Source: a virus. Taken from it: DNA of 36,613 bases. The notes below the pieces were generated by a model. The model saw only the letters and a list, made by a program, of their open reading frames with translations, searched no databases and was not told the origin of the DNA. The stretch lies in IMG/VR virus record IMGVR_UViG_3300022688_000007, positions 1-36,613 of that record; one strand, given 5' to 3'. The translations under genes and the position numbers were made by a program. Positions 100 through 32,574 of the stretch are shown here, one piece after another. Position 1 is the first letter of the stretch. Each line of letters opens with the position of its first letter.

Positions 100-1732
100 C
101 CAGAGTCATGGCGTGAGGAACGGTTAGCACTGACCACGACGCCTGCCAGTTTTCTGTGAAATACTGCGCAGCGTTTGTTGTAGCGGGGCTTGGATAATTG
201 TTTGTAGATGATGGGTAGTCTGAAAGGTGCGCAACCTCAAAATACCCGGTGACTGCTTCAATGTTTGCATCCGCCATGCCATGTGCGTGCAAAGCCATAA
301 GCTGCCCACCCCATGTGAGCGTCGATCTATAACCCGCGTCAAAGGAGGGGCTGACGCCGCCGCTGAACTCCTTGGTGAAGAAATCAAACGTCCCAAGCTG
401 AATTGGCTCTGCTACGGGCGGAAGTAAAACAATCTGGCCGCCCTCAGAGAAAGGGTTAGCGCCAGTCAACGGAATGTCGCTCGTGGTATTCCCGGTGACG
501 TTGGGTGTTTCGTATTTGTTGGCGAAGGTCGCAACCGTGCCATCGAAAGGATCACGGACAACTCGCGATCCTTCCGGCATAGCGGCATCGCGCTGCATGT
601 CGCCATCGCCCGACCCATCCAGCCCGATCAGAGGTAGCGTGAGGGTGTTAGCGACGGACTGCGCGGGCAGCGTTCGGCGGCGGCGGAACCAAGGCTGGAA
701 CAGACTGTCATGCGGCTCGTAGAGAGGCAGCTTCGTGCTGTCTATCTTAAACGGCTGCCCAAAGCCGCCAGAGTTGTCGGCCATAAAGTCGGCCACCTTG
801 CTTTGCAAGCCAAGAGCGTTTAGGGCGAAGATCGACGGGCCCGGCGTGAATTGAATGTGCCCTCCATTGGGCGGCGTTCGCGCTACGCCGCAATAAGCCA
901 ACGGAGTTCCCCACTCAATACCGTGCATCAGTACCGTGAGGATTGCATTTTTGATTTGCTGCTCTGTGAAATTGCTGCCAGCGGCAAGAGTAGTGACAAG
1001 CATCAGTTCTGAAATTGATGCCGATATTTCACGACCGTAGTTTGCGCCCGATTGGCCGCTGTCAGGCTCCCCAAAATAAATTGGAGACACCTGCTCGTAA
1101 CCCACCCGGTCGGCAATAGAAACATTCCCCGCGCTGAGTTGTGGGAATTTCGCGACTGTAGGCCAAAAGCGGTTGAGCCGTGTGTGTAGAGCGGAGAAAT
1201 TGCTCCACGTTATGTTATCGTCTGAATACGTTTGGCGCTCGGCGTAAAAGGTTTCGAGGTCAAAAGAATACAGTTGAGGCGTGGTGTCACCGGGCCACGT
1301 ATAGGTCGGCCCAAGAACCTCTGTGCCTGACGGGGCCGCGTTTACACAATGGAGGCAAGCAAACTCGGTAAAGTCTCCGCTTCTTGACCCGTAAGAAGAC
1401 CAGTTAGACTTGAGCAGCTTATCGCCGCCAGACAACGAGACGGAACCGGTTTCATTCAGAGCGGCGTCCCAGCCTCGATATCCCTCTCCAATGGCTTGAT
1501 CGCCCAGAACGTCGGGGTTTTTCTGCAAACCGTTGACGACACGTGCGGACCCGTCAACGGATTGCGCGGGGGTCACGCTAGTTACGGTCACATTGCCATT
1601 GTCTACGACATACGCTCGGCCGGTCTGATCCAGTCCGCAAGCGACGGGCGCAGAGAAGTTAAAGGTGACGCCACCCATTGCAACGCTGGTAGCGAAAGAG
1701 CCTTCAAATCTTTTGATAACAAAGTTCGCCAT
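1..1732 (-). CDS. Putative distal tail / host-recognition protein (main part of a 623 aa gene split by the window ends)
   Basis: A reading frame opens at ATG 1732 and has no stop down to base 1. Across the circular joint it continues to TGA at 36375-36377, giving 624 codons (623 residues). Its ATG overlaps the upstream stop by one base (TAATG), so it is translationally coupled to the fibre gene before it. The protein starts MANFVIKRF and is rich in Gly, Ser, Thr and Asn; I see no signal peptide, membrane segment or catalytic motif. I do not recognise the family. Its place after the tip protein and fibre, and before the lysis genes, suggests an adhesion or tail-tip role. Base composition is lower in GC than the J gene, which fits an exchanged host-range module. 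Confidence 0.85.
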   Translation of the reverse strand, partial: MANFVIKRFEGSFATSVAMGGVTFNFSAPVACGLDQTGRAYVVDNGNVTVTSVTPAQSVDGSARVVNGLQKNPDVLGDQAIGEGYRGWDAALNETGSVSLSGGDKLLKSNWSSYGSRSGDFTEFACLHCVNAAPSGTEVLGPTYTWPGDTTPQLYSFDLETFYAERQTYSDDNITWSNFSALHTRLNRFWPTVAKFPQLSAGNVSIADRVGYEQVSPIYFGEPDSGQSGANYGREISASISELMLVTTLAAGSNFTEQQIKNAILTVLMHGIEWGTPLAYCGVARTPPNGGHIQFTPGPSIFALNALGLQSKVADFMADNSGGFGQPFKIDSTKLPLYEPHDSLFQPWFRRRRTLPAQSVANTLTLPLIGLDGSGDGDMQRDAAMPEGSRVVRDPFDGTVATFANKYETPNVTGNTTSDIPLTGANPFSEGGQIVLLPPVAEPIQLGTFDFFTKEFSGGVSPSFDAGYRSTLTWGGQLMALHAHGMADANIEAVTGYFEVAHLSDYPSSTNNYPSPATTNAAQYFTENWQASWSVLTVPHAMTLADWALTGAGLVTLAALPDNGGRFIEAVQYRLNG

Positions 1733-3867
1733 TAAGACAACGCCACCGCAATACCGCATTTATTGAACAAGCCATTTGTGGCAGTGATTGTTGTGGTCCC
1801 CGCAGTTGCGCCCGTTACTGACGCAACGGCGAAAAATTCATCAGTTTGCGCGTCCCGCTCTGCATCTTCTGTTAGCCCGGACCATGACCAAGATGTTCCA
1901 TTTTGCACCAGTGCGGCAGCAATAACATCGTCACTTTCGGATGTCACAGTATCCAGTGAAAGGTCTGTTGAGCTTGTGTTTGACGTTGCCGTAACAGGCG
2001 TTCCCGCCGTTTTGCCATAAGCGGCATAAGCGGAGATGGCGACGTTAAAGCGAAGGTTTCCAATTACTTCAATGTCAGCGGTTTCTCCCGACGCCACGTC
2101 TAGGCTCCAAAGACTGAGGTGAACGGGGTTTCCTGGTATGGAAACTTCAGCCAGTTTGCTTGCAGAAACGCCGCCAATTTTTACATTTGTGGGCTGGTCA
2201 TATTGCACAACCACCGCGAAAACATAAATCGTCCGATCAGATGCGGCAGTTCCTATGTCCACAGAACTGAATGTGACATCGGAAGCATTTGCCGCATTTA
2301 TCGGGAGTGGCATTTCTGTGAAAGCAATAGATGTTGGAGGAGCGGCGGTCGTGAAGGTATCCGAGGACACCACGTCAGAGCGGTTGCCAAACGCATCCAC
2401 ATGCACCGCGTCCACTTGGTAATCCGTCGAATGAGTTAGGCCCGTGAAGCTGCCCGCGTTGTTCGCATCTGCGGTCGGGCTGGTGTCGCTGTCCCACGCC
2501 ACGCCTGCGCCGCCCGCACCCGCGATAAGCTGGTCATCGGTCAGCGCGGTTGCCGCCGAGGGACGCACGCCGAAGTAGATCGTGCCTCCTGCCTCATTCG
2601 ACGTGACCGCTGTCGTGGCTGTGCTTTCGCCAGTTTGCGTGCCGGTGAGGCTGGACAGCGTGGGCGCGGTCGTGTCGAGCGTGAGAGAACCGGCCTGCAC
2701 ATCGCCCACGTTGCCCGCTGCATCCCACAGGACAAGCTGCCAGTAGACCGTTCCGCTTTGACCGCTCGGCAATCCGTCTGTGAGCGTCCAAGGCCCGCCG
2801 CCGACTGTCACGGCCTGCGTCTCGGCAGATAGCTGGTCGGTTAGTCCCGCGCCGCCTTCTGCCGCCGTCTTGACCTGCGCCCGGGTTGCCGAGCTCTGGT
2901 CCGTGCTGGTCCAGACAACGCCAAGCGTACTGTCCTCGCTCAAACTGCCGACGCCGAGCGTCACGCTGCCGTCGCTGGCCTGCGTGCCCATCGTCAAAGT
3001 GCCGGTCGGAGCGGTTACGTCATTGGCTTCGGTGATCTGAAGCGTGAACGTGTCGCTGGTCTCGCGCCCGTACCCGTCCTCCATCGTCAGCGTGTAGGTC
3101 GCGTCTGCGGTGATGGTCGTGGGTGTGCCGGTCATGAGACCTGCGCTGCTGATGGACAGGCCAGCGGGCAGAGCAGGAGAGACAGATACGAATGTCAGCG
3201 TGTTGCCGTTGTCCGTCCAGTTCTGGAGCAGATCGGTCGAGGTAATTGCGCTATCTTCGGGGAACGACAGATCAAGGTCCGCACCGCCGGTTGCCTGCGT
3301 GCGGAGAAGCGCCGACCATGTGAACGTGTCTTGCAGCGCGCGCCCGTATTGATCGGTTGCCGTCACGGTCGCCGTGCCGCTCGATGCACTCGTGGGCGTG
3401 CCCGTGATAGCCCCGGTGCTGCTGTTGATCGAGAGGCCCGCAGGCAAGCCACTCGCGGCGTAGGTGAACGTCAGGTTCGCGCCGCTGGCCGAGGCGTCGA
3501 GCGTGGAAATCGCGGCGTCCACCGTCCATGCGGACTGGTCTGCGATAGAAAGCGTGCCGGGGGCGTAGCGCGCCGGAGCCGAGCGCGTGACCGTCTCGCC
3601 GCCGTCAGTGACATGCAGATAAAGCAAGAAGCCATCTGCCGACGTGTAGTCAGTGGGGCTGCTGCCAGTGCCGAAGGTTGCCGCCGCGGCCGGGTCGCTG
3701 GAGGCCGACCACTTGACCGTCTCAGTCGCGCTCACAGGGTCTGTGGTGTAGCCGATAGACGCATGGCTGCCGATCCGGGCTTCGCCATCGGTCAGGCCGG
3801 TCAGCGTGACGCCGAAGACTGCCGACACGCCGCTTGGACGTGTCAGCGAAAGGCTCAATCCGAGCAT
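1732..3867 (-). CDS. Tail fibre / structural protein with Ig-like (He_PIG) repeats
   Basis: This is a 711 residue protein. Its middle carries two clear putative-Ig repeats of the He_PIG type (about residues 130-185 and 225-280), recognisable by the pattern LPAGLSIS(S)..G.(I/M)TGTPT. Further Thr/Ser-rich beta repeats follow to about residue 505. Such domains are common in tail fibres that bind the cell surface. The last 200 residues look different in sequence and base composition and may be the receptor-binding end. A good ribosome site (GGAG) precedes ATG 3867. The gene sits 3 bases after the small gene at 3871 and overlaps the next gene by one base. Confidence 0.85.
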   Translation of the reverse strand: MLGLSLSLTRPSGVSAVFGVTLTGLTDGEARIGSHASIGYTTDPVSATETVKWSASSDPAAAATFGTGSSPTDYTSADGFLLYLHVTDGGETVTRSAPARYAPGTLSIADQSAWTVDAAISTLDASASGANLTFTYAASGLPAGLSINSSTGAITGTPTSASSGTATVTATDQYGRALQDTFTWSALLRTQATGGADLDLSFPEDSAITSTDLLQNWTDNGNTLTFVSVSPALPAGLSISSAGLMTGTPTTITADATYTLTMEDGYGRETSDTFTLQITEANDVTAPTGTLTMGTQASDGSVTLGVGSLSEDSTLGVVWTSTDQSSATRAQVKTAAEGGAGLTDQLSAETQAVTVGGGPWTLTDGLPSGQSGTVYWQLVLWDAAGNVGDVQAGSLTLDTTAPTLSSLTGTQTGESTATTAVTSNEAGGTIYFGVRPSAATALTDDQLIAGAGGAGVAWDSDTSPTADANNAGSFTGLTHSTDYQVDAVHVDAFGNRSDVVSSDTFTTAAPPTSIAFTEMPLPINAANASDVTFSSVDIGTAASDRTIYVFAVVVQYDQPTNVKIGGVSASKLAEVSIPGNPVHLSLWSLDVASGETADIEVIGNLRFNVAISAYAAYGKTAGTPVTATSNTSSTDLSLDTVTSESDDVIAAALVQNGTSWSWSGLTEDAERDAQTDEFFAVASVTGATAGTTTITATNGLFNKCGIAVALS

Positions 3868-4221: not shown

Positions 4222-4979
4222 CAGGATGCCCTCATTCCGTACATTGTGATGGTCCCGCTTTGAATGTTGCCGGATCCGCAAAAGAACCGGATGCCATTGT
4301 GGACTTCATTCTGCGCGCGAACCCCCGCCACTTCGGTCAGGCGAAAGTTCGAGCTTGTGTGAACCGTGAAAGACCCCCGCATCGTCGTCCAATGCAGCGG
4401 CACGCCGGGGCTGGACAGGAACATGAAGCCCGAGACACCGGAAGCCACATCGTCCACGGTATCACCGATCATGATGCTCGTGCCGCCGGTGCTGGCCCCG
4501 GAAACGGTGGAGCCGACAACCGTCATGCGCGTGTAAACGTAACTCAGGGCAGAATTTATGAACGTCGATCCGCCGTTGGTGCTCAGCTGCACGTTGAACG
4601 TATTGTTGCCCGACGCCGGGCGCACGTTCTGAAAGGTGAAAAGATAGGACTCGAAGGTCGTCGAGCTGAATGAGGCTGACCCGAAAATGACTTCTGCCGC
4701 GCTGGTAATCCCGACCCTCTGGATCAGCTCGGTCCCGAGCGGGAGCCCGAACTGGTCCTCCGCCGTGCCCATCGTCAGCCACCCGTCGTCGGCGGCGTTG
4801 CGCATTTTCAGCGTGGCCGGCGTGGTGCTGGTGTCCATCCATTCCATGAACGGCACCGTGTCGGTCGGCTCGCTCGGCCCGGAATGCCGCGACACCTCCG
4901 CGCCGATCAGCGCGTTGAACCCGGTCCGAACGGCAAGGCCCGTGCCGTTCGCGACCGAGAGGCTTGAAACCTGGCTCAT
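4221..4979 (-). CDS. Putative tail fibre or appendage protein
   Basis: This is a 252 residue protein starting MSQVSSLSVANGTG. ATG 4979 overlaps the J gene stop by four bases (ATGA). The N-terminal third (about residues 1-65) has the look of the short fibre-attachment segment seen in many phage fibres, with N.LIGAEVSR then a WMDTST..LK.RNAAD.GW stretch. The C-terminal part is beta-rich and Gly/Ser/Thr-rich, as in trimeric fibre tips. It follows J directly, which is the usual place for a side or central fibre. The exact binding role cannot be read from sequence. Confidence 0.75.
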   Translation of the reverse strand: MSQVSSLSVANGTGLAVRTGFNALIGAEVSRHSGPSEPTDTVPFMEWMDTSTTPATLKMRNAADDGWLTMGTAEDQFGLPLGTELIQRVGITSAAEVIFGSASFSSTTFESYLFTFQNVRPASGNNTFNVQLSTNGGSTFINSALSYVYTRMTVVGSTVSGASTGGTSIMIGDTVDDVASGVSGFMFLSSPGVPLHWTTMRGSFTVHTSSNFRLTEVAGVRAQNEVHNGIRFFCGSGNIQSGTITMYGMRAS

Positions 4980-9064: not shown

Positions 9065-10797
9065 GCTACGCGCCCTCGCGAACGATCCGTGACGCTGCTG
9101 GCCTGCACCGCCGCAGTGATCTGCGGAAGCCGGCGCTGAATTTCCATCCCGATCTGCTCGGCAACGCCCATCTGCGCGCCGCGCGCATCAATGGAGATCG
9201 TCACGTTGCCGCCCGAAATCTTGTCATTCGGGATGACGCGGCCCGACGAAGACGGCGCGAAGATTTCTGGGCCACGCTCACCGACAAGATACGCCTTGCC
9301 CTGGCTCACCGGCCCGCCCTCGGCCCGAGCGCCGCCGAAGATGCCGCTGAATGCACTGCTCAGAAGACCAGTGCCGCCTACTGATCCGCCAAATGGCCCG
9401 GAGCCAAACAGCGCCGCCTCAAGCGCAGCCCGCGCGATGGACTTCGCCAGATTGGCGAACGTCTCGGAAAGATCGTCACCCGCCACGATGGCATCAAGAA
9501 TGCCGTCCTTGAGCGTCTGCGCCTGCTGATCCCAGAACTGCGCGGCCTCACCGACCTGCGTGTAGCGGTCGCGCGCCATCTCAAGAGCGGAGTTGTATGT
9601 TTCGAGGTTGATCGACCCCGCCGCCAACCGCTCGTTCAAAACCGCCTGCACGTCGCCAAATTGAACCGCAGCTTCTTGCGCCCGGCGGATGGCCTGATCT
9701 GCCGCCCGCATTTCTGCTGTAATTTCGCGAGCGCCTGATCCGCCCCCGCCACCGCCGCCGCTCCTGACGCTGGATGTGTAAGAACGCTGCGCCACCACGC
9801 TTTCCGCCCTGGCGTCCATCCCCGCGAAGCGGGCGGCATCAGGCCCGACAGCACCGCTATTCAACAAGGCGATGGCGTTGGCTGCTGCCCCTGCGTCATT
9901 CACGACGCGCCCTAGCTGTTGCGACGCAATGTCTGCAAAGCGAAAAAGCTCGGCAATCGCCGCGTCATATGTCGGGTCGTTCAGCGCCTCCAAAGCATCG
10001 GCCGCATCCAAGGCGCGATCACGTTGGACGCTTAGTTCTTCCTGCCCCGATGTGGCAAAATTCATAACGGCTGACGCCGCCTCACGAACAGAAGGTGAAA
10101 GAGACCCGAAAGCCGTTTCCACGGCGCGAAGGTTGCGCCCGCTGGATGTTTCAAGCCGCTGCAAGGCGTCAATCGCCGTCCCGACATCACTCTCCATTTC
10201 CGAGAACCCGGCAACCGCGCTTTCGACCTGATTGCGAAACTGGCTCAACGACACTTCGCGCAGCCCATCCACAACGCGCCTTATCTGCGTGTCCATGCGG
10301 CCATATCGTTCAATCAAAACCTCGACCGAAGCGCCCGCCAAATCTTGCGCGTCCCGCAAGCCCTTGAACGCACCTGACAAATCGTCCACTCTTTCGCTTA
10401 CGTCGCGCGTGTCCCGCTCTAGGTTGAAAAAACCGGAGACAAGCGGAATCAGAGCGCCCGCCGCAACACCGGCGAAGATGCCAATGGTGCCGAAGGCTAG
10501 GCCGATGTCTGCCGCCTGGATGGACAGCGCCCGCAAGACACCGCCGCCCGCCTGCGCCTGCTGGAAAACCTGCGAAAGCTGTAGCGACGTTTGGCGAAGC
10601 GCATTTGCGTTGAAAGACCGGCTTAAACCTTGAGCGGCGACGGCTGTCGTGGCCATGCCCCGGCTCATCTGCGTGGTGGCCTTTGTGACCTGACCGCCAG
10701 TAACCACGGCCTGATCACCCATGCGGTCAAGGGCAACCGTACCCTGCGCGACTTGACGGCTATCGACCCGAAGGCCAAGTGTGGCGATATCAGTCAT
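9061..10797 (-). CDS. Tail length tape measure protein
   Basis: This is a 578 residue protein starting MTDIATLGLRVDSRQV. It is mostly long alpha-helix, rich in Ala, Gln, Glu and Arg. A hydrophobic stretch lies at about residues 90-125 (AADIGLAFGTIGIFAGVAAGALIPL). A Gly-rich linker (about residues 345-355) precedes the C-terminal region, which has the usual tape measure ending FA.GG.V....A.LVGERGPEIF.P...G.VI. At about 0.15 nm per residue the tail should be near 85 nm. The ATG has no good ribosome site; the 13 bases upstream overlap the Shine-Dalgarno of the divergent plus-strand gene. This suggests the gene between GT and this one was inserted and disturbed the usual coupling. Confidence 0.93.
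   Translation of the reverse strand: MTDIATLGLRVDSRQVAQGTVALDRMGDQAVVTGGQVTKATTQMSRGMATTAVAAQGLSRSFNANALRQTSLQLSQVFQQAQAGGGVLRALSIQAADIGLAFGTIGIFAGVAAGALIPLVSGFFNLERDTRDVSERVDDLSGAFKGLRDAQDLAGASVEVLIERYGRMDTQIRRVVDGLREVSLSQFRNQVESAVAGFSEMESDVGTAIDALQRLETSSGRNLRAVETAFGSLSPSVREAASAVMNFATSGQEELSVQRDRALDAADALEALNDPTYDAAIAELFRFADIASQQLGRVVNDAGAAANAIALLNSGAVGPDAARFAGMDARAESVVAQRSYTSSVRSGGGGGGGSGAREITAEMRAADQAIRRAQEAAVQFGDVQAVLNERLAAGSINLETYNSALEMARDRYTQVGEAAQFWDQQAQTLKDGILDAIVAGDDLSETFANLAKSIARAALEAALFGSGPFGGSVGGTGLLSSAFSGIFGGARAEGGPVSQGKAYLVGERGPEIFAPSSSGRVIPNDKISGGNVTISIDARGAQMGVAEQIGMEIQRRLPQITAAVQASSVTDRSRGRVA
10753..10782 (+). promoter_or_regulatory. Candidate promoter for the plus-strand moron gene
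   Basis: A TTGACG -35 box lies at 10753-10758. The best -10 position after an 18 base spacer (10777-10782) is poor. Strong -35 with weak -10 is common in alphaproteobacteria. It lies inside the tape measure coding region and would give a leader of about 20 bases carrying the AGGAG site. Confidence 0.3.
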
Positions 10798-20848: not shown

Positions 20849-21370
20849 TCACCCTGCTTTTTTCACATCGCCCGGATTGATCTTCAATTCGCCCAGCGGG
20901 CCGTCTGCCTCGACGTGAAAGCCCTCGGCGTCCTCCACGATGCGCCGGAACCTGGCTGTAAGGCCAGCCAGCGGACCGCCGATAATTTCGAGCGCCTGAC
21001 CTACGTCAAAGGCGGGCGGGGCCTGCTCGCCGCGGTCCTTGGCCTTCTGGGCCGCTCTGTAAGCTTTGTCGGTCATGTCCTGAAATCTCCGCAGGTCTCT
21101 TTCCGCCGACCAACTCACCACAGTCATGGTCGGTGCGAGATATTTGATCTTGCGGCTTTCGTGGAACTGATGTGGCGACAGGCGGGCGAAAAGGTAGTTC
21201 GGCAGCGCCGGTCGCTCGTTCCAGATGGTGATGCTTTTGCGGCCGGCTCTTTTGGGGTCCGGCTTGCCTTCGAGGACCAGCCCGCACCAACAATCAGCGC
21301 CCAAGGCGCGCAACTCGTCGCGGACGCGGATCTCCTCGCCGCTCCTGGCGTAGCAAAGGTAAAGCGTCAT
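20849..21370 (-). CDS. NusG-family transcription antiterminator
   Basis: This is a 173 residue protein. The N-terminal NGN-like part reads LYLCYARSGEEIRVRDELRALG (residues 3-24), matching the opening WY.....G.E..V...L of NusG/RfaH, and later ALPNYLFARL corresponds to the conserved LFPGYLFV. A linker leads to a KOW motif at about residues 120-147 (FDVGQALEIIGGPLAGL) with a last beta strand ELKINPGDV. Members bind RNA polymerase and change its response to pauses and terminators. The gene lies just before the terminase genes, so late-gene antitermination is the likely role. It overlaps the DnaA-like gene by four bases. Confidence 0.85.
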   Translation of the reverse strand: MTLYLCYARSGEEIRVRDELRALGADCWCGLVLEGKPDPKRAGRKSITIWNERPALPNYLFARLSPHQFHESRKIKYLAPTMTVVSWSAERDLRRFQDMTDKAYRAAQKAKDRGEQAPPAFDVGQALEIIGGPLAGLTARFRRIVEDAEGFHVEADGPLGELKINPGDVKKAG

Positions 21371-21597
21371 TCCGCCGCCTCCTGCTGCCGGATGCCGTAG
21401 ATGACCGTTGTATGGTCGCGGCCAAAGATGTTGCCGATCTGTTTCAGGCTGTAGCCGAGGTCGCGCCGGATACGGGCGTAGGCTTCCATGCGGGCGCGGG
21501 CGACGGGAGCGCGCCGCGATCTGCCGAGCAGGTCACGCGGCGTCAGGCCGTATTCCTCGGCCACGTCGCAGACGATCATCATGGCGGGGCGCGTCAT
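21367..21597 (-). CDS. Stand-alone DnaA domain IV-like DNA-binding protein
   Basis: This is a 76 residue protein starting MTRPAMMIVCDVAEEYG. It covers only the C-terminal DNA-binding domain of DnaA: a first helix, then PVARARMEAYARIRRDLGYSL, then KQIGNIFGRDHTTVIYG, which is the DnaA signature that reads DnaA boxes. The AAA+ ATPase domain is absent. It could bind host or phage DnaA boxes to steer or block initiation, or act as a regulator. ATG 21597 overlaps the upstream stop by four bases. Confidence 0.87.
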   Translation of the reverse strand: MTRPAMMIVCDVAEEYGLTPRDLLGRSRRAPVARARMEAYARIRRDLGYSLKQIGNIFGRDHTTVIYGIRQQEAAE

Positions 21598-21911
21598 TCG
21601 GACACCAGCGAATAGCGCCAGAAGCCATACACCTTGCGGCGCGTGATCCGGCCCTGCGCCCGAAGCGCGCCCAAATAGTTGCTGGTCGTCGTCCTGGAGC
21701 ACCCGAGGGCCGCGGCCATGTCGTGCATCGTCGCCTCGGGGTGGCCTCGCAGATACTCGGTCAGTTCTTCCACGCGGCTCAGTCGGGTCGTGTGCCGGCA
21801 CTGGGCGGTGAAGTAGATGCGGGAGTGGTCCCAGTGTTCGGAACAGGCCGCGTTTTCAACGGGCGCGACCTTGGCGTGCAATTCGGCGTAGATGTCTTCG
21901 GGGTGCTTCAT
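21594..21911 (-). CDS. Winged-helix DNA-binding protein
   Basis: This is a 105 residue protein starting MKHPEDIYAELHAKV. The C-terminal half is a winged helix: LTEYLRGHPEATMHDMAAALGCSRTTTSNYLGALRAQGRI, with recognition helix around SRTTTSNYLGAL and a following wing (RRKVYGFWRYSL). ATG 21911 overlaps the previous gene by four bases. It is the first of two adjacent wHTH genes in the replication block. It could regulate early genes or help at the origin. Confidence 0.83.
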   Translation of the reverse strand: MKHPEDIYAELHAKVAPVENAACSEHWDHSRIYFTAQCRHTTRLSRVEELTEYLRGHPEATMHDMAAALGCSRTTTSNYLGALRAQGRITRRKVYGFWRYSLVSE

Positions 21912-22411: not shown

Positions 22412-22836
22412 CCCAACCCCCTTTCGCGAAGCGTTGCCTTGTCCACCAGACCGCGCTGCACCATCTCGTCCAGAAGCGTCGGCGTGACAGTGAAGCGAGA
22501 TACCGCCCGCCCCTTGTTGATGTGATCTGCCCAATACGCCGCCCGATCCTTCACTTGCACAGTCTCGGACTTCGGCGCAAAAGCCTCGTCCTCCCATCGG
22601 CGTTGGTTGAGGTACGTCCCAGGGTGCAGCCAAGAGGCTTGCGGGTTCTGCTGGCGCCACCACGCATAATATGTGGCCACCTTGTCGCGGGCCTCCTTCC
22701 TGCGCGGCGGGGTCAGCTTGCGGTATGCCTTTTCGGCCACCGCCTTGCCGCTCTTGGCGCCTTGCGGAACTTGCGCCCAAAAATCGGCAAAGCCCGCGTT
22801 TCGAAGTGTGTCGCTTTCGGGGAAAAGATCAGTCAT
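22408..22836 (-). CDS. Replisome organiser-like protein (C-terminal domain type)
   Basis: This is a 142 residue protein starting MTDLFPESDTLRNAG. It contains the arrangement FADFWAQVP..AKSGKAVAEKAYRKLTP...., then WLHPGTYLNQRRWEDE. This pattern (FW..YP..GK..A.KAW.KL and PATWLN..RW.DE) is seen at the C-terminus of phage replication initiators and helicase-loading proteins. Here it forms nearly the whole protein. It probably helps recruit the host helicase, with DNA recognition supplied by the neighbouring wHTH and DnaA-like proteins; that link is inference. Confidence 0.78.
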   Translation of the reverse strand: MTDLFPESDTLRNAGFADFWAQVPQGAKSGKAVAEKAYRKLTPPRRKEARDKVATYYAWWRQQNPQASWLHPGTYLNQRRWEDEAFAPKSETVQVKDRAAYWADHINKGRAVSRFTVTPTLLDEMVQRGLVDKATLRERGLG

Positions 22837-24085
22837 GGAACATATCCACAGTTTCTGCCGCGCTTTGCACAGGCATCTGTCCTTTGCGTTTTTTCATTTC
22901 CTTAAACCTTTGCCATGCTTGGCTTTTCGGTTGAGTCTGGCCTAGACCCTTGCACCAATAATCATTCCGCAAAATGCACTTCGCCATGCGGCGCCAAGAC
23001 GGCGCCCATTGCTTCGCTTCAAGTTCTGGCGGGGCTTCGTCCGGTATTTCGTCATATCCTCGACGGTGCCAGCCGACTATAAATTTCTTGAACCGATCAA
23101 CGTAATGTTCCCTCGTCGTGGGCGGCAGAGTGCGCAAAAGCATGTTGGTAAAAGACTGCCACGTATGGCCGGGCGGTAACGTGACCTTGTTATAGCCAGT
23201 CATGTTTCCGCTTTCTTGAATGTAAAGCGAACCGCTGTTCGCTCCGTTCACGCGCGCAACCAGCTTAAACCAGGTTTCCGGTTCAAGAATGTGATAGAGC
23301 CAAAGCCCTCGGCGCTGATCGTCGCCAAACGGCTGGCACAAGCGTTGATCTGACAGCGGAACACCAGCCATGTGCATTTTGTCGTACACAGCATTGTGCG
23401 GCTTTTCTGGATAGGCGGCATGATATTTCCAAATATCATTAGTAAGCCAGTCGTATATCGGGTAAACATTGTAGACTTTGCCAACGACTTTCGTAGTCCA
23501 GCGCCAGCCGTTAAGGGTTAGATTGCGCTTTTCCCAAGTGGCAATAGCACAGTAGCGGTGAAGGCTTTCCTGCGCTCGAATGCCTATAAAGCCCGCCGTT
23601 TTCTTGCCTTGGCTATACCAGTCTCCAAATACATGGATAAACTCTTCAAACTCTATTCCGTCGCTCATTTTGTCCATAAGAAACGGATAATCTTCAACGC
23701 TCTTGCACCCGTGCGGCTTTGGCCTGATCCAATCGCTTTCTCGGTCAGGATCCCACGCAATCCATTGCGGCTCGTAGTTCGTCAAAGCATTTCGCAACCG
23801 CATTGGAACACAAATCCAATGAGGATCAATGTTTTCTCGGTATAGATGAAACATCTCTTTCGCGTGCTTGATCGTGTCAGCGTATTGCGCCTCAAGATCG
23901 ACAAACATGACGCCAACGCGCGCGCTGCGGCGCTGCGCTTCTTCCATCACAAGATGAAAGAGAACGCTGCTATCCTTTCCTCCTGAAAAAGCGATGTATT
24001 GGCGCTCTGTCGCGTCGAATGTCTGGCGGATACGCTCCCGCGCTGCATCCAGGACACTTTCGGTTAGGTAACGCTTGCCGCCCAT
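22829..24085 (-). CDS. IbrA-like PP-loop protein (PAPS reductase family, DUF3440)
   Basis: This is a 418 residue protein starting MGGKRYLTESVLDAARER. The ATP pyrophosphatase P-loop is SGGKDSS (residues 34-40), followed by VMFVDLEAQY, a segment typical of PAPS reductase-like enzymes. A DUF3440-type C-terminal region follows with several Trp- and Cys-bearing stretches (for example CILRNDYWCKGL). Such enzymes activate a substrate by adenylation; the true substrate of IbrA-type proteins is unknown. It overlaps the ParB-like gene by one base (TGATG), the conserved IbrB-IbrA pairing. Base composition is clearly more AT-rich than the structural genes, a sign of transfer as a cassette. Confidence 0.87.
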   Translation of the reverse strand: MGGKRYLTESVLDAARERIRQTFDATERQYIAFSGGKDSSVLFHLVMEEAQRRSARVGVMFVDLEAQYADTIKHAKEMFHLYRENIDPHWICVPMRLRNALTNYEPQWIAWDPDRESDWIRPKPHGCKSVEDYPFLMDKMSDGIEFEEFIHVFGDWYSQGKKTAGFIGIRAQESLHRYCAIATWEKRNLTLNGWRWTTKVVGKVYNVYPIYDWLTNDIWKYHAAYPEKPHNAVYDKMHMAGVPLSDQRLCQPFGDDQRRGLWLYHILEPETWFKLVARVNGANSGSLYIQESGNMTGYNKVTLPPGHTWQSFTNMLLRTLPPTTREHYVDRFKKFIVGWHRRGYDEIPDEAPPELEAKQWAPSWRRMAKCILRNDYWCKGLGQTQPKSQAWQRFKEMKKRKGQMPVQSAAETVDMFHD

Positions 24086-25272: not shown

Positions 25273-25458
25273 GTACGCCCTCCTTGGCGCCTCCCTATGG
25301 CGCGCGGTCAGGCAGGGGGAGAACCTGCTTTTCGGTCGCTATCCTAGACCGCGCTTTGCCAGCGTCCGCGAATTTCCGCCAAAAGTCCAATCACGCTTTT
25401 CTGTAACATTTCATGGCGTTAGGCATAGTTCCGCTTTCCGCTCGGGTGGCCCACCGGC
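25273..25458. other. Short gene-free gap between HNH and IbrB-like genes
   Basis: No gene is seen. The gap holds the strong AAGGAGG ribosome site for the IbrB-like gene near its left end. It is long for this compact genome and may carry a promoter for the IbrB-IbrA pair, but I find no convincing -35/-10 pair or U-tailed hairpin. Confidence 0.6.
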
Positions 25459-25989
25459 CTACTCGTGCAGCAAGTTCGAAAACCAATCTTCAAGGGTGCG
25501 ATAGTCGTCCTCATGGACCGCGCCCTTCCCCATGTTGCAATCATTGCACAGGACCTGCATGTTCGCAACTTCCAATCCCAATTCAGGGAAACGGCGGCGC
25601 GGCTTGATGTGATCCACCACAAGATGTCCATGCGGTGTGTCGCCGGGCTGCCAGCCACAGCACTGGCACCGCCTGCCGTGAATTTTTAATGCTTCGTATC
25701 GAACTCGCTTCCATTCCCAAGATGCGTAGAACGCATCGGGCTTGTGCGCTGGCGCACGTTTCTTTTTTTGCGGTTTCCGCTCCGGTTTGTTTTCAACGCC
25801 AGGCTGCGCAAGCGCAAGATTTGCAGCTTCAACAAGCTGCGCACGTCTTTGGCGCTTTGACGCGACCAACGGCTTTCTAAGAAAAGGGGTCAATTTTTCA
25901 ATGACCAACTTTGTCGGCGGGTTTCCATATGGGTGACCAAAATGCCGCAAAGCCTTTGAAACGATGTTTCTGTATGTGTTTCCGTTCAT
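25459..25989 (-). CDS. HNH endonuclease
   Basis: This is a 176 residue protein starting MNGNTYRNIVSKALRHFG. The N-terminal 80 residues are basic and helical, ending in a Lys/Arg/Pro linker (KPERKPQKKKRAP). The HNH domain follows: CQCC (Cys 108, 111), VVDHIKPR (Asp 126, His 127), the Asn of VANMQVL (143) and CNDC (Cys 148, 151), so both zinc-binding pairs and catalytic residues are intact. It is a site- or structure-specific nuclease, possibly in packaging, homing or recombination. It is preceded by an unusually long untranslated region. Confidence 0.9.
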   Translation of the reverse strand: MNGNTYRNIVSKALRHFGHPYGNPPTKLVIEKLTPFLRKPLVASKRQRRAQLVEAANLALAQPGVENKPERKPQKKKRAPAHKPDAFYASWEWKRVRYEALKIHGRRCQCCGWQPGDTPHGHLVVDHIKPRRRFPELGLEVANMQVLCNDCNMGKGAVHEDDYRTLEDWFSNLLHE

Positions 25990-26464
25990 CTATCTTTTAT
26001 CCTGTTTCAAACCCTATCTAAGCCGTTCCAAAGGACAGAATGCGACTTAGGGCCGGGGATTAAACCCAGCCAGCCGCTCTGTCCTCCGGTATCTTGCCTC
26101 AAACCCTAGAGCCAGGCCGCACCTTACGGACACGACGCATAGCCTCTAGCTGCGCCGATGGCCCCCATTGCTCGCCGCCCTAGATGGCAGCGGGTGCTTC
26201 GACCGTGGGGGCACCCCATAGGGGAATGCGTGGCCGTGCGCTGGCACCCTTCCTAGTAGCGCGTCTTGAACCATAACCTAGCAAGTCGTCCCGCCGTTAT
26301 GGTCTGCATGGGGAAAATGTTGCGGGCAGACACAAGATGGTGTATCTAACCCTTGCGGCCACCGTCCTTCCCCAAGAACGTATGTGGTCGCATGGCGGCG
26401 GTTGAGTGTAGGAACTCCCGCCGCCGCTTTTCTTTCTAAGCGATGAAACCCGCCAAGGCAAGTC
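25990..26464. ncRNA. Gene-free structured region, candidate noncoding RNA
   Basis: These 475 bases contain no credible gene. They hold several inverted repeats: GGACAGA 26033-26039 with TCTGTCC 26078-26084, enclosing a hairpin GGCCGGG/CCCAGCC (26051-26071); GGGTGC 26192-26197 with GCACCC 26211-26216; and CCCC/GGGG at 26214-26224. They end, on the plus strand, in a strong intrinsic terminator at 26394-26435. No plus-strand gene lies upstream, so a plus-strand RNA of up to about 430 nt is the simplest explanation. The strand and the existence of the RNA are inferred. A long structured leader of the HNH mRNA on the minus strand is the alternative. Confidence 0.45.
26394..26435 (+). terminator. 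Strong intrinsic terminator on the plus strand
   Basis: GGCGGCGG (26394-26401) pairs with CCGCCGCC (26418-26425), and an inner GAG/CTC pair (26404-26406 with 26415-26417) extends the stem past a two base bulge. TTTTCTTTC follows at 26428-26436. On the minus strand the same hairpin has no U run, so it acts on plus-strand transcripts. It has no upstream plus-strand gene to serve. Confidence 0.75.
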
Positions 26465-26770
26465 TCAAGAAATTTCGCCGCGCTTCTCGATCACCCCAAT
26501 CGCTGCCAGCGCCGCCTGGGGGCTGTTCACAATGACCGCATGACCCCGCCAGTCGCGGTGCCAGTCCTTTTGTGCGGGGGTAAGCTTCTGCGCGCTCGGG
26601 GGCTTGGAACCGTCCTTTACTTCGAGAAGGTAGGTAACGCCCCGAAAACCCACGCACAGGTCAGGGCATCCGCCACCAACCCGGTGAAGGTGCATGACGG
26701 AAGCCCCCACGTCCTTCAGCGCGGCAACCACTTCGCGTTGATTGTCGTCTACCTTAGCCGCTTTCAACAC
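26465..26770 (-). CDS. VRR-NUC nuclease
   Basis: This is a 101 residue protein if started at GTG 26770 (TTG 26767 is the only close alternative); it overlaps the end of the preceding gene by 17 bases. The order DDNQREVVAALKDVG, then HRVGGGCPDLCVGF, then YLLEVKDG, then LTPAQKDWHRDWRG matches the VRR-NUC (PD-D/ExK) core, with catalytic Asp in CPD and Glu-x-Lys in LEVK present. Small VRR-NUC proteins of this size in phages act as Holliday-junction or replication-fork nucleases. It fits the recombination block beside ERF, NinB and YbcO. Confidence 0.88.
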   Translation of the reverse strand: MLKAAKVDDNQREVVAALKDVGASVMHLHRVGGGCPDLCVGFRGVTYLLEVKDGSKPPSAQKLTPAQKDWHRDWRGHAVIVNSPQAALAAIGVIEKRGEIS

Positions 26771-26936
26771 GGGCCTCCGCTTCCATAAGTCGAGCCTTTG
26801 CCTTGACCCATTCCTTGTGCGCATGATGCCGTGCACGGGTATCTCCGCGCTTCTCTGCGTCGGCATACTTGCGGCCGGCCAAGACCGCCTCACGGCGGCG
26901 CAGAAGGGCTATGTGCTGGCGCTCCGTGCGTGTCAT
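26754..26936 (-). CDS. Small basic helical protein, unknown
   Basis: This is a 60 residue protein starting MTRTERQHIALLRRR. ATG 26936 overlaps the upstream stop by four bases. It is almost wholly helical and very basic, with heptad-like spacing (LRRREAVLAGRKYADAEKRG....HKEWVKAKARLMEAEARV), so it may form a short coiled coil or bind nucleic acid. I do not recognise a family. Confidence 0.75.
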   Translation of the reverse strand: MTRTERQHIALLRRREAVLAGRKYADAEKRGDTRARHHAHKEWVKAKARLMEAEARVESG

Positions 26937-31097: not shown

Positions 31098-31699
31098 CCC
31101 GCAAATTGCGCGTTCTCGTCGCTTGTGAATACAGCGGGCGCGTCAGAGACGCTTTCCGGGCGCTTGGACATGAGGCTATTTCCTGCGACCTGCTGCCGAC
31201 AGAAGCGACAGGGCCGCACATGCAGGTTGACGCCTTGACTGTCTTGCATTGGGACGCATGGGACTTGGTGATTGCTCATCCGCCTTGCACGTATCTATGC
31301 AACAGTGGCGTTCGCTGGCTTTCGACTGATCCTGCGAGATGGGCCAAAATGCGCGATGCGGCAGTGTTTTTCATGCAGTGCCTTTCGATGCCGAAATGCC
31401 CTGTCGCCGTAGAAAATCCGGTAATGCACGGGCACGCCAACATCAGAAAGCCGGATTTCACCGTACAGCCGTGGCAATTTGGAGATCCGGCCAAAAAACG
31501 CACATGCTTCTGGACACGCGGCCTGCCGCCATTGAGGCCGACCAGCGACATGACCGCCGCCGATGCAAAACCCGATTGCCACCATGCAAGTCCTGGCCCG
31601 GATCGCTGGAAAGAACGCTCGCGGACTTACCACGGCATGGCCGCAGCCATCGCGCGGCAATGGTCTGCACACATTCTGCAAGCGGAGATCGCGCTATGA
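31094..31699 (+). CDS. DNA methyltransferase-like protein (C5-type fold)
   Basis: This is a 201 residue protein starting MTRKLRVLVACEYSGRVRDAF. The opening LRVLVACEYSG..RDAFRALGHEA.SCDLLP is an AdoMet-binding Rossmann motif. WDLVIAHPPCTYLCNSG supplies a PPC motif in the place of the catalytic Pro-Cys of cytosine-5 enzymes. CPVAVENPVM corresponds to the ENV-like motif, and a final part has RTCFWTRGLPPL. It is much shorter than full C5 methyltransferases, lacking a clear target-recognition domain. Phages often carry this type; substrate and activity are unproven. It is coupled to the PP-loop gene that follows. Confidence 0.82.
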   Translation: MTRKLRVLVACEYSGRVRDAFRALGHEAISCDLLPTEATGPHMQVDALTVLHWDAWDLVIAHPPCTYLCNSGVRWLSTDPARWAKMRDAAVFFMQCLSMPKCPVAVENPVMHGHANIRKPDFTVQPWQFGDPAKKRTCFWTRGLPPLRPTSDMTAADAKPDCHHASPGPDRWKERSRTYHGMAAAIARQWSAHILQAEIAL

Positions 31700-32574
31700 C
31701 CTACCCCTACCGCCTCGACGGCGACACACGGTCGGGATCGCCCTATCTGCTGCCAGAAGGAAACGTCGCCATCGCATTCAGCGGCGGCAGAACAAGCGCC
31801 TACATGCTGCACGAGATATTGCAGGCCAATGGCGACCTGCCCGAGCAGGTCATCGTCAGCTTCCAGAACACCGGGCGGGAAATGCCTGAGACGCTGGACT
31901 TCGTGCAGGAATGCGGCGAGCGGTGGGGCGTCAGGATCGTCTGGCTGGAATACCGCAAAGAGGAACCGCGATACGAGGTTGTCAGCCACAACTCAGCCAG
32001 CCGGAACGGGGAGCCGTTTGAGGCGCTGATCCGCAAGCGAAAATTCCTGCCGAACCGCGTCGCGCGCTTTTGCACGGCTGAACTAAAGGTTCATTGTCTG
32101 ACCAGATACCTGCGCAGTATCGAATGGGAGGGTTGGGCGTTAGCTCGCGGTTTGCGCGCCGACGAAGGGCATAGGCTCAAGTCGGCGGCGCCCAAAGAGC
32201 GTTACACTTTTTGGCATCCGCTGGCAGACGCTATGGTGTCCCGCCGCCACGTGTCGAAATTCTGGGCAAAGCAGCCGTTTGACCTTCGCTTGCCAAATGT
32301 GGACGGGCGAACGCAACTCGGCAATTGCGACGGGTGCTTTTTGAAGTCCGAGGCGGCCCGCGCTGCTCTGGCCCGCGACTACCCCGAGCGAGCGCAATGG
32401 TGGGCTGACATGGAGTCTCTGGCCCAGTCCATTAGCAGCCGCCCAGACGACGCTCGTTTTCGCGAAGACGGCACATGGGCGGCGCATATGGAGTTTGTAG
32501 ACCGGCAGGGCGATTGGATATTCGACACCGAAGGCGCGCTATGCCAAGCCGACGATGGGGAGTGTACGGGATGA
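31696..32574 (+). CDS. PP-loop (PAPS reductase-like) protein
   Basis: This is a 292 residue protein starting MTYPYRLDGDTRSG. The ATP-binding PP-loop is SGGRTSAYML (residues 29-38). NTGREMPETLDFV (58-70) is the second family motif. Cys 126 and 134 (RFCTAELKVHC) with Cys 211 and 214 (GNCDGC) form two pairs fit for a metal or iron-sulphur cluster. This phage family is annotated as PAPS reductase-like, but sulphate reduction is unlikely. A role in nucleic acid modification is possible because of the adjacent methyltransferase-like gene. It is distinct from the IbrA-like protein at 22829-24085. Confidence 0.87.
   Translation: MTYPYRLDGDTRSGSPYLLPEGNVAIAFSGGRTSAYMLHEILQANGDLPEQVIVSFQNTGREMPETLDFVQECGERWGVRIVWLEYRKEEPRYEVVSHNSASRNGEPFEALIRKRKFLPNRVARFCTAELKVHCLTRYLRSIEWEGWALARGLRADEGHRLKSAAPKERYTFWHPLADAMVSRRHVSKFWAKQPFDLRLPNVDGRTQLGNCDGCFLKSEAARAALARDYPERAQWWADMESLAQSISSRPDDARFREDGTWAAHMEFVDRQGDWIFDTEGALCQADDGECTG

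Follow-up and report, generated by a model that had tools for sequence, protein, structure and literature searches.

The DNA examined here, a 36,613-nt viral stretch hereafter referred to as the window, carries on its minus strand (25995-26427) a fold of approximately 430 nt, comprising hairpins P1-P10, that ends just before an HNH gene. Comparison of related sequences strongly supports the existence of a large structured RNA conserved in at least 12 phages, and the RNA family is apparently undescribed. With regard to its role, we consider it about an even chance (probability roughly 0.5), judging from sequence, that the RNA acts in cis as the leader of a middle/late transcription unit and controls the downstream operon in a manner resembling that of the put RNA of phage HK022.

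The preliminary description of this DNA had pointed to the stretch at 25990-26464 as gene-free, and this is confirmed: it is situated between two minus-strand genes and wholly contains no open reading frame (ORF) of 60 amino acids on either strand. The upstream neighbour (26465-26893) is a nuclease gene whose syntenic counterpart is the VRR-NUC gene in phiGT1, a cultivated lytic Sulfitobacter phage, and the downstream neighbour (25459-25989) encodes an HNH endonuclease of 176 amino acids. In phiGT1, the same two genes flank a 640-base unannotated gap, in which the RNA lies; the stretch is thus a real, conserved gap and not a gene missed in one genome. Six-frame analysis of stop codons and comparison across members revealed no open frame common to them, and similarity among members is alike in all frames, as expected from DNA similarity; a conserved small protein spanning the region was therefore not found. 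It should be noted that in phiGT1 the start annotated for the HNH gene (4371-4470) looks too far downstream, as the ORF extends in frame upstream and an earlier start abuts the RNA and matches the window protein.

The family comprises 12 distinct members, namely the window, phiGT1 and ten IMG/VR contigs, which were collected by protein, motif and hairpin searches; 11 of the 12 come from metagenomic contigs, some of them fragmentary. Group 1 consists of the window, L004 (IMG/VR 3300005731_000047), phiGT1, L120, L177 and L002, and group 2 consists of L257, L272, L244, L273, L268 and L214. The first motif scans of IMG/VR returned mostly chance matches and two real members (L120 and L177), and a pattern based on P1 added six. 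A covariance model of the 5' part of the RNA, trained on these same members, scores them at 63-114 bits and other loci matching the P1 pattern at 21 bits at most. Because the model was trained on the members themselves, profiles were used as an independent check: one that covers the RNA beyond P1 and draws on group-1 sequences only recovers five of the six group-2 members at the expected position (E 3e-5 to 0.007), the sixth being weak, while the corresponding group-2 profile finds phiGT1, L120 and L177. BLAST against plasmids and phages yielded phiGT1 as the sole real match. A pattern scan of genomes gave six matches in unrelated phyla, all apparently due to chance, and host prophage copies were thus not found in that scan. 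A further locus, L012, has the promoter and P1, a short fold with a z-score of -6.1 and a model score of 16 bits; it is kept outside the twelve but makes up, with them, the 13 loci on which the promoter and terminator tallies below are based. At 3311-3480 (plus strand) of L012, the promoter and a P1-type hairpin are followed by a 150-nt multi-hairpin fold and then by a replication-like gene, and this fold may be the leader in minimal form.

The evidence favours the minus strand as the one that encodes the structured RNA, opposite to the strand suggested initially. The minus-strand fold of the region has a z-score of -3.7, with none of 100 shuffles as low, compared with -1.1 and 16 of 100 for the plus strand. 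An alignment of five relatives folds on the minus strand at -216.9 kcal/mol vs. -132.2 ± 7.0 for column shuffles (z -12.0, none of 60 as good) and on the plus strand with z -9.4. Within helices predicted on both strands, reading the minus strand gives 21 G-U vs. 9 A-C cells, and in the same reading the P6 loop of L120 and L177 is a UUCG tetraloop. Thus, an undescribed phage RNA, as had been proposed, is strongly supported, except that it runs on the minus strand, with the genes, and is not a plus-strand RNA ending in a terminator.

The proposed terminator owes its appearance to a GC hairpin (26394-26425) followed by CTTTTCTTTCT on the plus strand. The inverted repeats of the region are present, and this hairpin is real; it corresponds, however, to P1, the 5' hairpin of the minus-strand RNA beside the promoter, and the T-run is simply the A-rich -10/start region of that minus-strand promoter as read on the opposite strand. 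In most relatives, the plus strand shows just three to four T before the run breaks, and a mechanical terminator scan listed no plus-strand terminator at the hairpin. Plus-strand transcripts may be stopped there, but this is not the conserved feature. The suggestion that the region is a replication origin is likewise unsupported, since base pairs of the RNA type, including G-U, are kept and the region contains no DnaA-box-like site, no iterons and no GC skew switch. Taken with the strand evidence and the conserved minus-strand promoter, these results make either a plus-strand regulatory RNA ending in a terminator or an origin very improbable, despite the hairpin and T-run.

The stems are conserved with compensatory change. 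Across five full-length sequences, a structure of 135 pairs, which is somewhat favoured by having been derived from the same alignment, has 89.6% of its cells paired, whereas controls in which pairing partners were slid, which account for kinship, reach at most 44%. Double-changed pairs number 48 vs. 23.5 ± 3.1 in shuffles, which ignore kinship, and none of 500 shuffles is as good by any measure; imperfect alignment of P2 and P3 leads to an understatement of covariation. The six group-2 sequences have a significant fold of their own (z -14.4 forward, -11.5 reverse), and L002 alone folds with z -5.3. A 5' module of approximately 125 nt, consisting of hairpins P1-P3 and a covarying pseudoknot, is common to all 12 members, while the 3' parts of the two groups have no detectable similarity.

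On the minus strand of the window, the RNA begins with P1 (26394-26425), a GC-rich 5' hairpin with a CAA bulge that is found in 12 phages with double changes in its inner stem. It is followed by hairpin P2 (26355-26391), whose loop region forms the pseudoknot, and by P3 (26324-26352), whose GGGT/GCCC arms are replaced in relatives by GCAA/TTGC, TGAATG/CATTCA or TTGAC/GTCAA. Hairpins P4 (ACCATAAC/GTTATGGT; 26270-26303; helix 8, five of seven pairs double-changed), P5 (GCGC arms; 26237-26263; helix 10) and P6 (CCCC/GGGG; 26214-26224; helix 13, with double changes) each have 100% of cells paired, and three of the seven pairs of P7 (CGCTGCC/GGCGGCG; 26171-26196; helix 16) are double-changed. The P9 region (26087-26120) contains the invariant GGCTCTARGGTTTGANGCAAGAT, and P10 (26031-26086; helices 19-20), a long terminal hairpin with GGACAGA/TCTGTCC arms, again shows double changes. 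The 3' tail (25995-26030) carries a second GGTTTGA, a near-repeat of that in P9, and extends to the ribosome-binding site of the HNH gene. The invariant GGTTTGA thus occurs twice in group 1, flanking P10 (26007-26013 and 26098-26108; TAGGGTTTGAGGCAAGATA / TAGGGTTTGAAACAGGATA), and these paired motifs are perhaps sites of protein or tertiary contact.

In all 12 members, the loop region of P2 is complementary to the strand that immediately follows P3. In the window, the pseudoknot would pair TTGGGGAA of the P2 loop region (26368-26375, minus) with TTTTCCCCA of J3/4 (26309-26317, minus); the equivalent partners are TGTGGGAA/TTCCCACA in L004 and GACAGGTTA/TAACCTGTC in L214. When the pairing was compared with that of swapped partners in the 12 sequences, own partners averaged -13.3 kcal/mol vs. 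-8.6 for swapped ones (permutation p = 2e-5, or 6e-5 when swaps were kept within groups), the segments having been picked by eye, although their offsets vary little (43-53 and 101-115). Several members have a distal P2 stem that competes with the pseudoknot, and the RNA might therefore refold while it is being made. Two hairpins competing for the same bases had been described elsewhere in the region. The GGGTGC/GCACCC pairing is possible in the window but is not kept in phiGT1, L120 and L177, whereas its CCCC/GGGG rival (26214-26224) is conserved; the competition that is conserved instead is the one between the distal P2 stem and the P2-loop x J3/4 pseudoknot.

The RNA fits no catalogued family. 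An Rfam search of the window, L177 and phiGT1 with E values up to 5 gave chance matches only within the RNA, and the other members gave no match to the RNA at gathering scores; the comparison with GOLLD, ROOL and HEARO that had been recommended thus returned no match. A tRNA/tmRNA search of the window found none, tmRNA being absent by both ARAGORN and Rfam. Rfam did identify other RNAs nearby: in the window, an int-alpA RNA (RF02996, 43.4 bits) lies at 25290-25354 (minus), just upstream of a ParB-like gene, and L273 also has an int-alpA RNA after the large RNA (10611-10676, minus), which places two structured RNAs in one leader region.

A sigma70-like promoter is predicted on the minus strand directly upstream of the RNA (26461-26433). 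Its -35 element TTGCCT (26456-26461) and -10 element TAGAAA (26433-26438; TAGAAA, TAGAAT, TACATG or TACAAG within the family) are separated by a 17-nt spacer, and the predicted transcription start is at approximately 26426-26430. A TTG occurs 31-36 nt before P1 in 12 of the 13 loci (L012 included), where shuffles give an expectation of 1.5 (p = 2e-4), and the matches to TTGACA/TATAAT sum to 100 vs. 77.4 ± 3.8 (p = 2e-4). As the pattern used for collecting loci covered only three A before P1, most of this signal does not stem from the way in which loci were selected. Downstream of the RNA, none of the 13 loci (L012 included) has a terminator-like site.

The genes on either side of the RNA differ in their constancy. 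A Holliday-junction resolvase or nuclease gene precedes it in seven of the 12 members, i.e., a RusA-type resolvase gene in L244, L272, L273, L214 and L002 and a VRR-NUC-like nuclease gene in the window and phiGT1. The gene behind it encodes an HNH protein in the window, L004, phiGT1 and L002, a ParB-like protein in L272, a DUF5131 protein in L273 and a helicase in L214, and is unnamed in L120 and L177. Given that an HNH gene directly follows the RNA in four members, the RNA might be the partner of the HNH protein, as in HEARO or the OMEGA guide RNAs (IscB, IsrB), which likewise are structured RNAs upstream of an HNH gene, or it might be a group I intron with an HNH homing endonuclease. The HNH gene was nonetheless rejected as a partner, other genes taking its place in L120, L177, L272, L273 and L214, and this neighbour is accordingly dispensable, with a different gene in at least five relatives. 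Conversely, such an RNA is absent from the HNH relatives L003 and L005-L010, so that RNA and nuclease gene are not consistently coupled. Furthermore, Pfam detects in the protein an HNH domain alone, with no RuvC-type domain, and the RNA has no match to Rfam HEARO or group I models; a group I intron is also opposed by flanking ORFs that are whole and differ between phages. This explanation is largely refuted, and its residual probability is very low. In L272, the order is RNA, ParB-like gene and PAPS reductase-like gene, which is the order of the window without HNH, and the HNH gene therefore looks like a later guest.

Farther downstream on the strand of the RNA, the window and phiGT1 have DnaA-C-like and NusG-like genes, followed by terminase, portal and head genes; L004 and L177 have a similar arrangement, as judged by ORF order alone. 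The adjacent DnaA-C-like and NusG-like (phrog_6386) genes of the window (20849-21801, minus) stand just before the terminase gene, in the same order as in phiGT1. The pair is an early/late module common to unrelated phages, phiGT1 being a podovirus whose structural genes differ. Of the ten records searched, just two yielded the NusG-like gene, and NusG is thus not a general partner of the RNA.

The promoter, the size of the RNA with no terminator and the co-directional block of genes behind it together make a cis-acting leader the reading that fits best. RNA polymerase would start at P1 and read through the RNA into the downstream genes, which would make the RNA the leader of the middle/late transcription unit. 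The nascent leader might then fold and, alone or together with a phage or host factor, set the extent or efficiency of operon transcription. The alternative pairings of P2, in its distal stem or in the pseudoknot, may allow a co-transcriptional switch, and the variable 3' domain may carry lineage-specific control. Because this domain differs between the two groups, the RNA as a whole need not have one single function. Cis action appears most likely, although it is argued from position and the missing terminator, and a longer transcript that is processed would look identical.

It is also conceivable that the leader acts more locally, controlling translation of the first downstream gene or responding to a ligand in the manner of a riboswitch. 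The tail directly includes the ribosome-binding site in the window, L004, phiGT1 and L120, but in L177 this site lies outside the conserved tail, and the first gene varies widely (HNH, ParB-like, helicase, DUF5131 or unnamed). We therefore regard this type of control as unlikely.

A stronger competitor is a free RNA that acts in trans or forms particles in the manner of GOLLD and ROOL and that would be cut from the operon transcript or made together with it. Its size and complexity would suit such a role, as would its conservation as a unit while the downstream genes change. GOLLD and ROOL occur in phages, often near tRNA islands (PMC12286853), and tRNA genes adjoin two of the 12 members: five lie just upstream of the L120 RNA and a tRNA-Trp gene just upstream of that of L177, in divergent orientation. 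However, none lies near the other ten, and Rfam finds neither GOLLD nor ROOL. There is also no terminator or other visible 3' end, although processing could still occur, and group-1 RNAs run directly up to the ribosome-binding site of the following gene, whose ORF starts approximately 440-467 nt from P1, at the end of the RNA (L002 included). Like GOLLD, the present RNA is large and ornate, is sometimes found beside tRNA genes and has one conserved and one variable part; GOLLD, however, often exceeds 800 nt, and it is its 3' region that is universally conserved, whereas the members of the present family have the 5' module in common and vary in the 3' domain. ROOL, which assembles into cages made only of RNA, is likewise a large phage RNA with pseudoknots, but the present RNA is shorter and apparently co-transcribed with downstream genes. 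Overall, a free RNA seems possible but clearly less probable than the cis-acting leader.

The nearest precedent for a cis-acting leader is the put RNA of HK022 (putL/putR), which lies immediately after the PL promoter and alters RNA polymerase in cis, an influence that reaches at least 10 kb (PMC9378689). The likeness is one of position and kind only: in both cases, an operon opens with a sigma70 promoter followed directly by a folded phage RNA, with a co-directional block of genes behind it. Put RNA, which as a nascent transcript suppresses termination with no need of a dedicated protein, is approximately 70 nt long, i.e., six times shorter, consists of two stem-loops and belongs to early promoters, whereas the present RNA measures approximately 430 nt, has a pseudoknot in addition to about ten helices and stands after recombination genes. 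Lambda pR' similarly has its own promoter and a leader after recombination genes and ahead of late genes, but there the leader is short and antitermination requires the DNA-bound protein Q, of which no relative was identified here. More speculatively, the RNA might represent a new class of leaders in which a pseudoknotted 5' module of approximately 125 nt, combined with lineage-specific 3' domains, reprograms the polymerase in cis for the late operon and so replaces a protein of the Q/N type; this broader proposal, in which the 5' module is common to unrelated phages, is tentative and less likely than not.

To our knowledge, few large structured phage RNAs have been described, and what GOLLD and ROOL do is not yet known. 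The present family adds a further one, whose promoter, pseudoknot and constant position in the genome point to a testable job in middle/late operon control. As one member resides in the cultivated lytic phage phiGT1, the role of the RNA can be tested in the laboratory, and the contrast between a common 5' module and changing 3' domains means that mutants and swaps could tell their two roles apart. Two minor observations concern other elements of these genomes. In L002, Rfam identifies an abiF RNA (RF03085) at 1343-1379 (minus), approximately 1 kb upstream of the large RNA, and the window contains two different phosphoadenosine phosphosulfate reductase-like genes, at 22829-24085 (minus) and 31339-32574 (plus).
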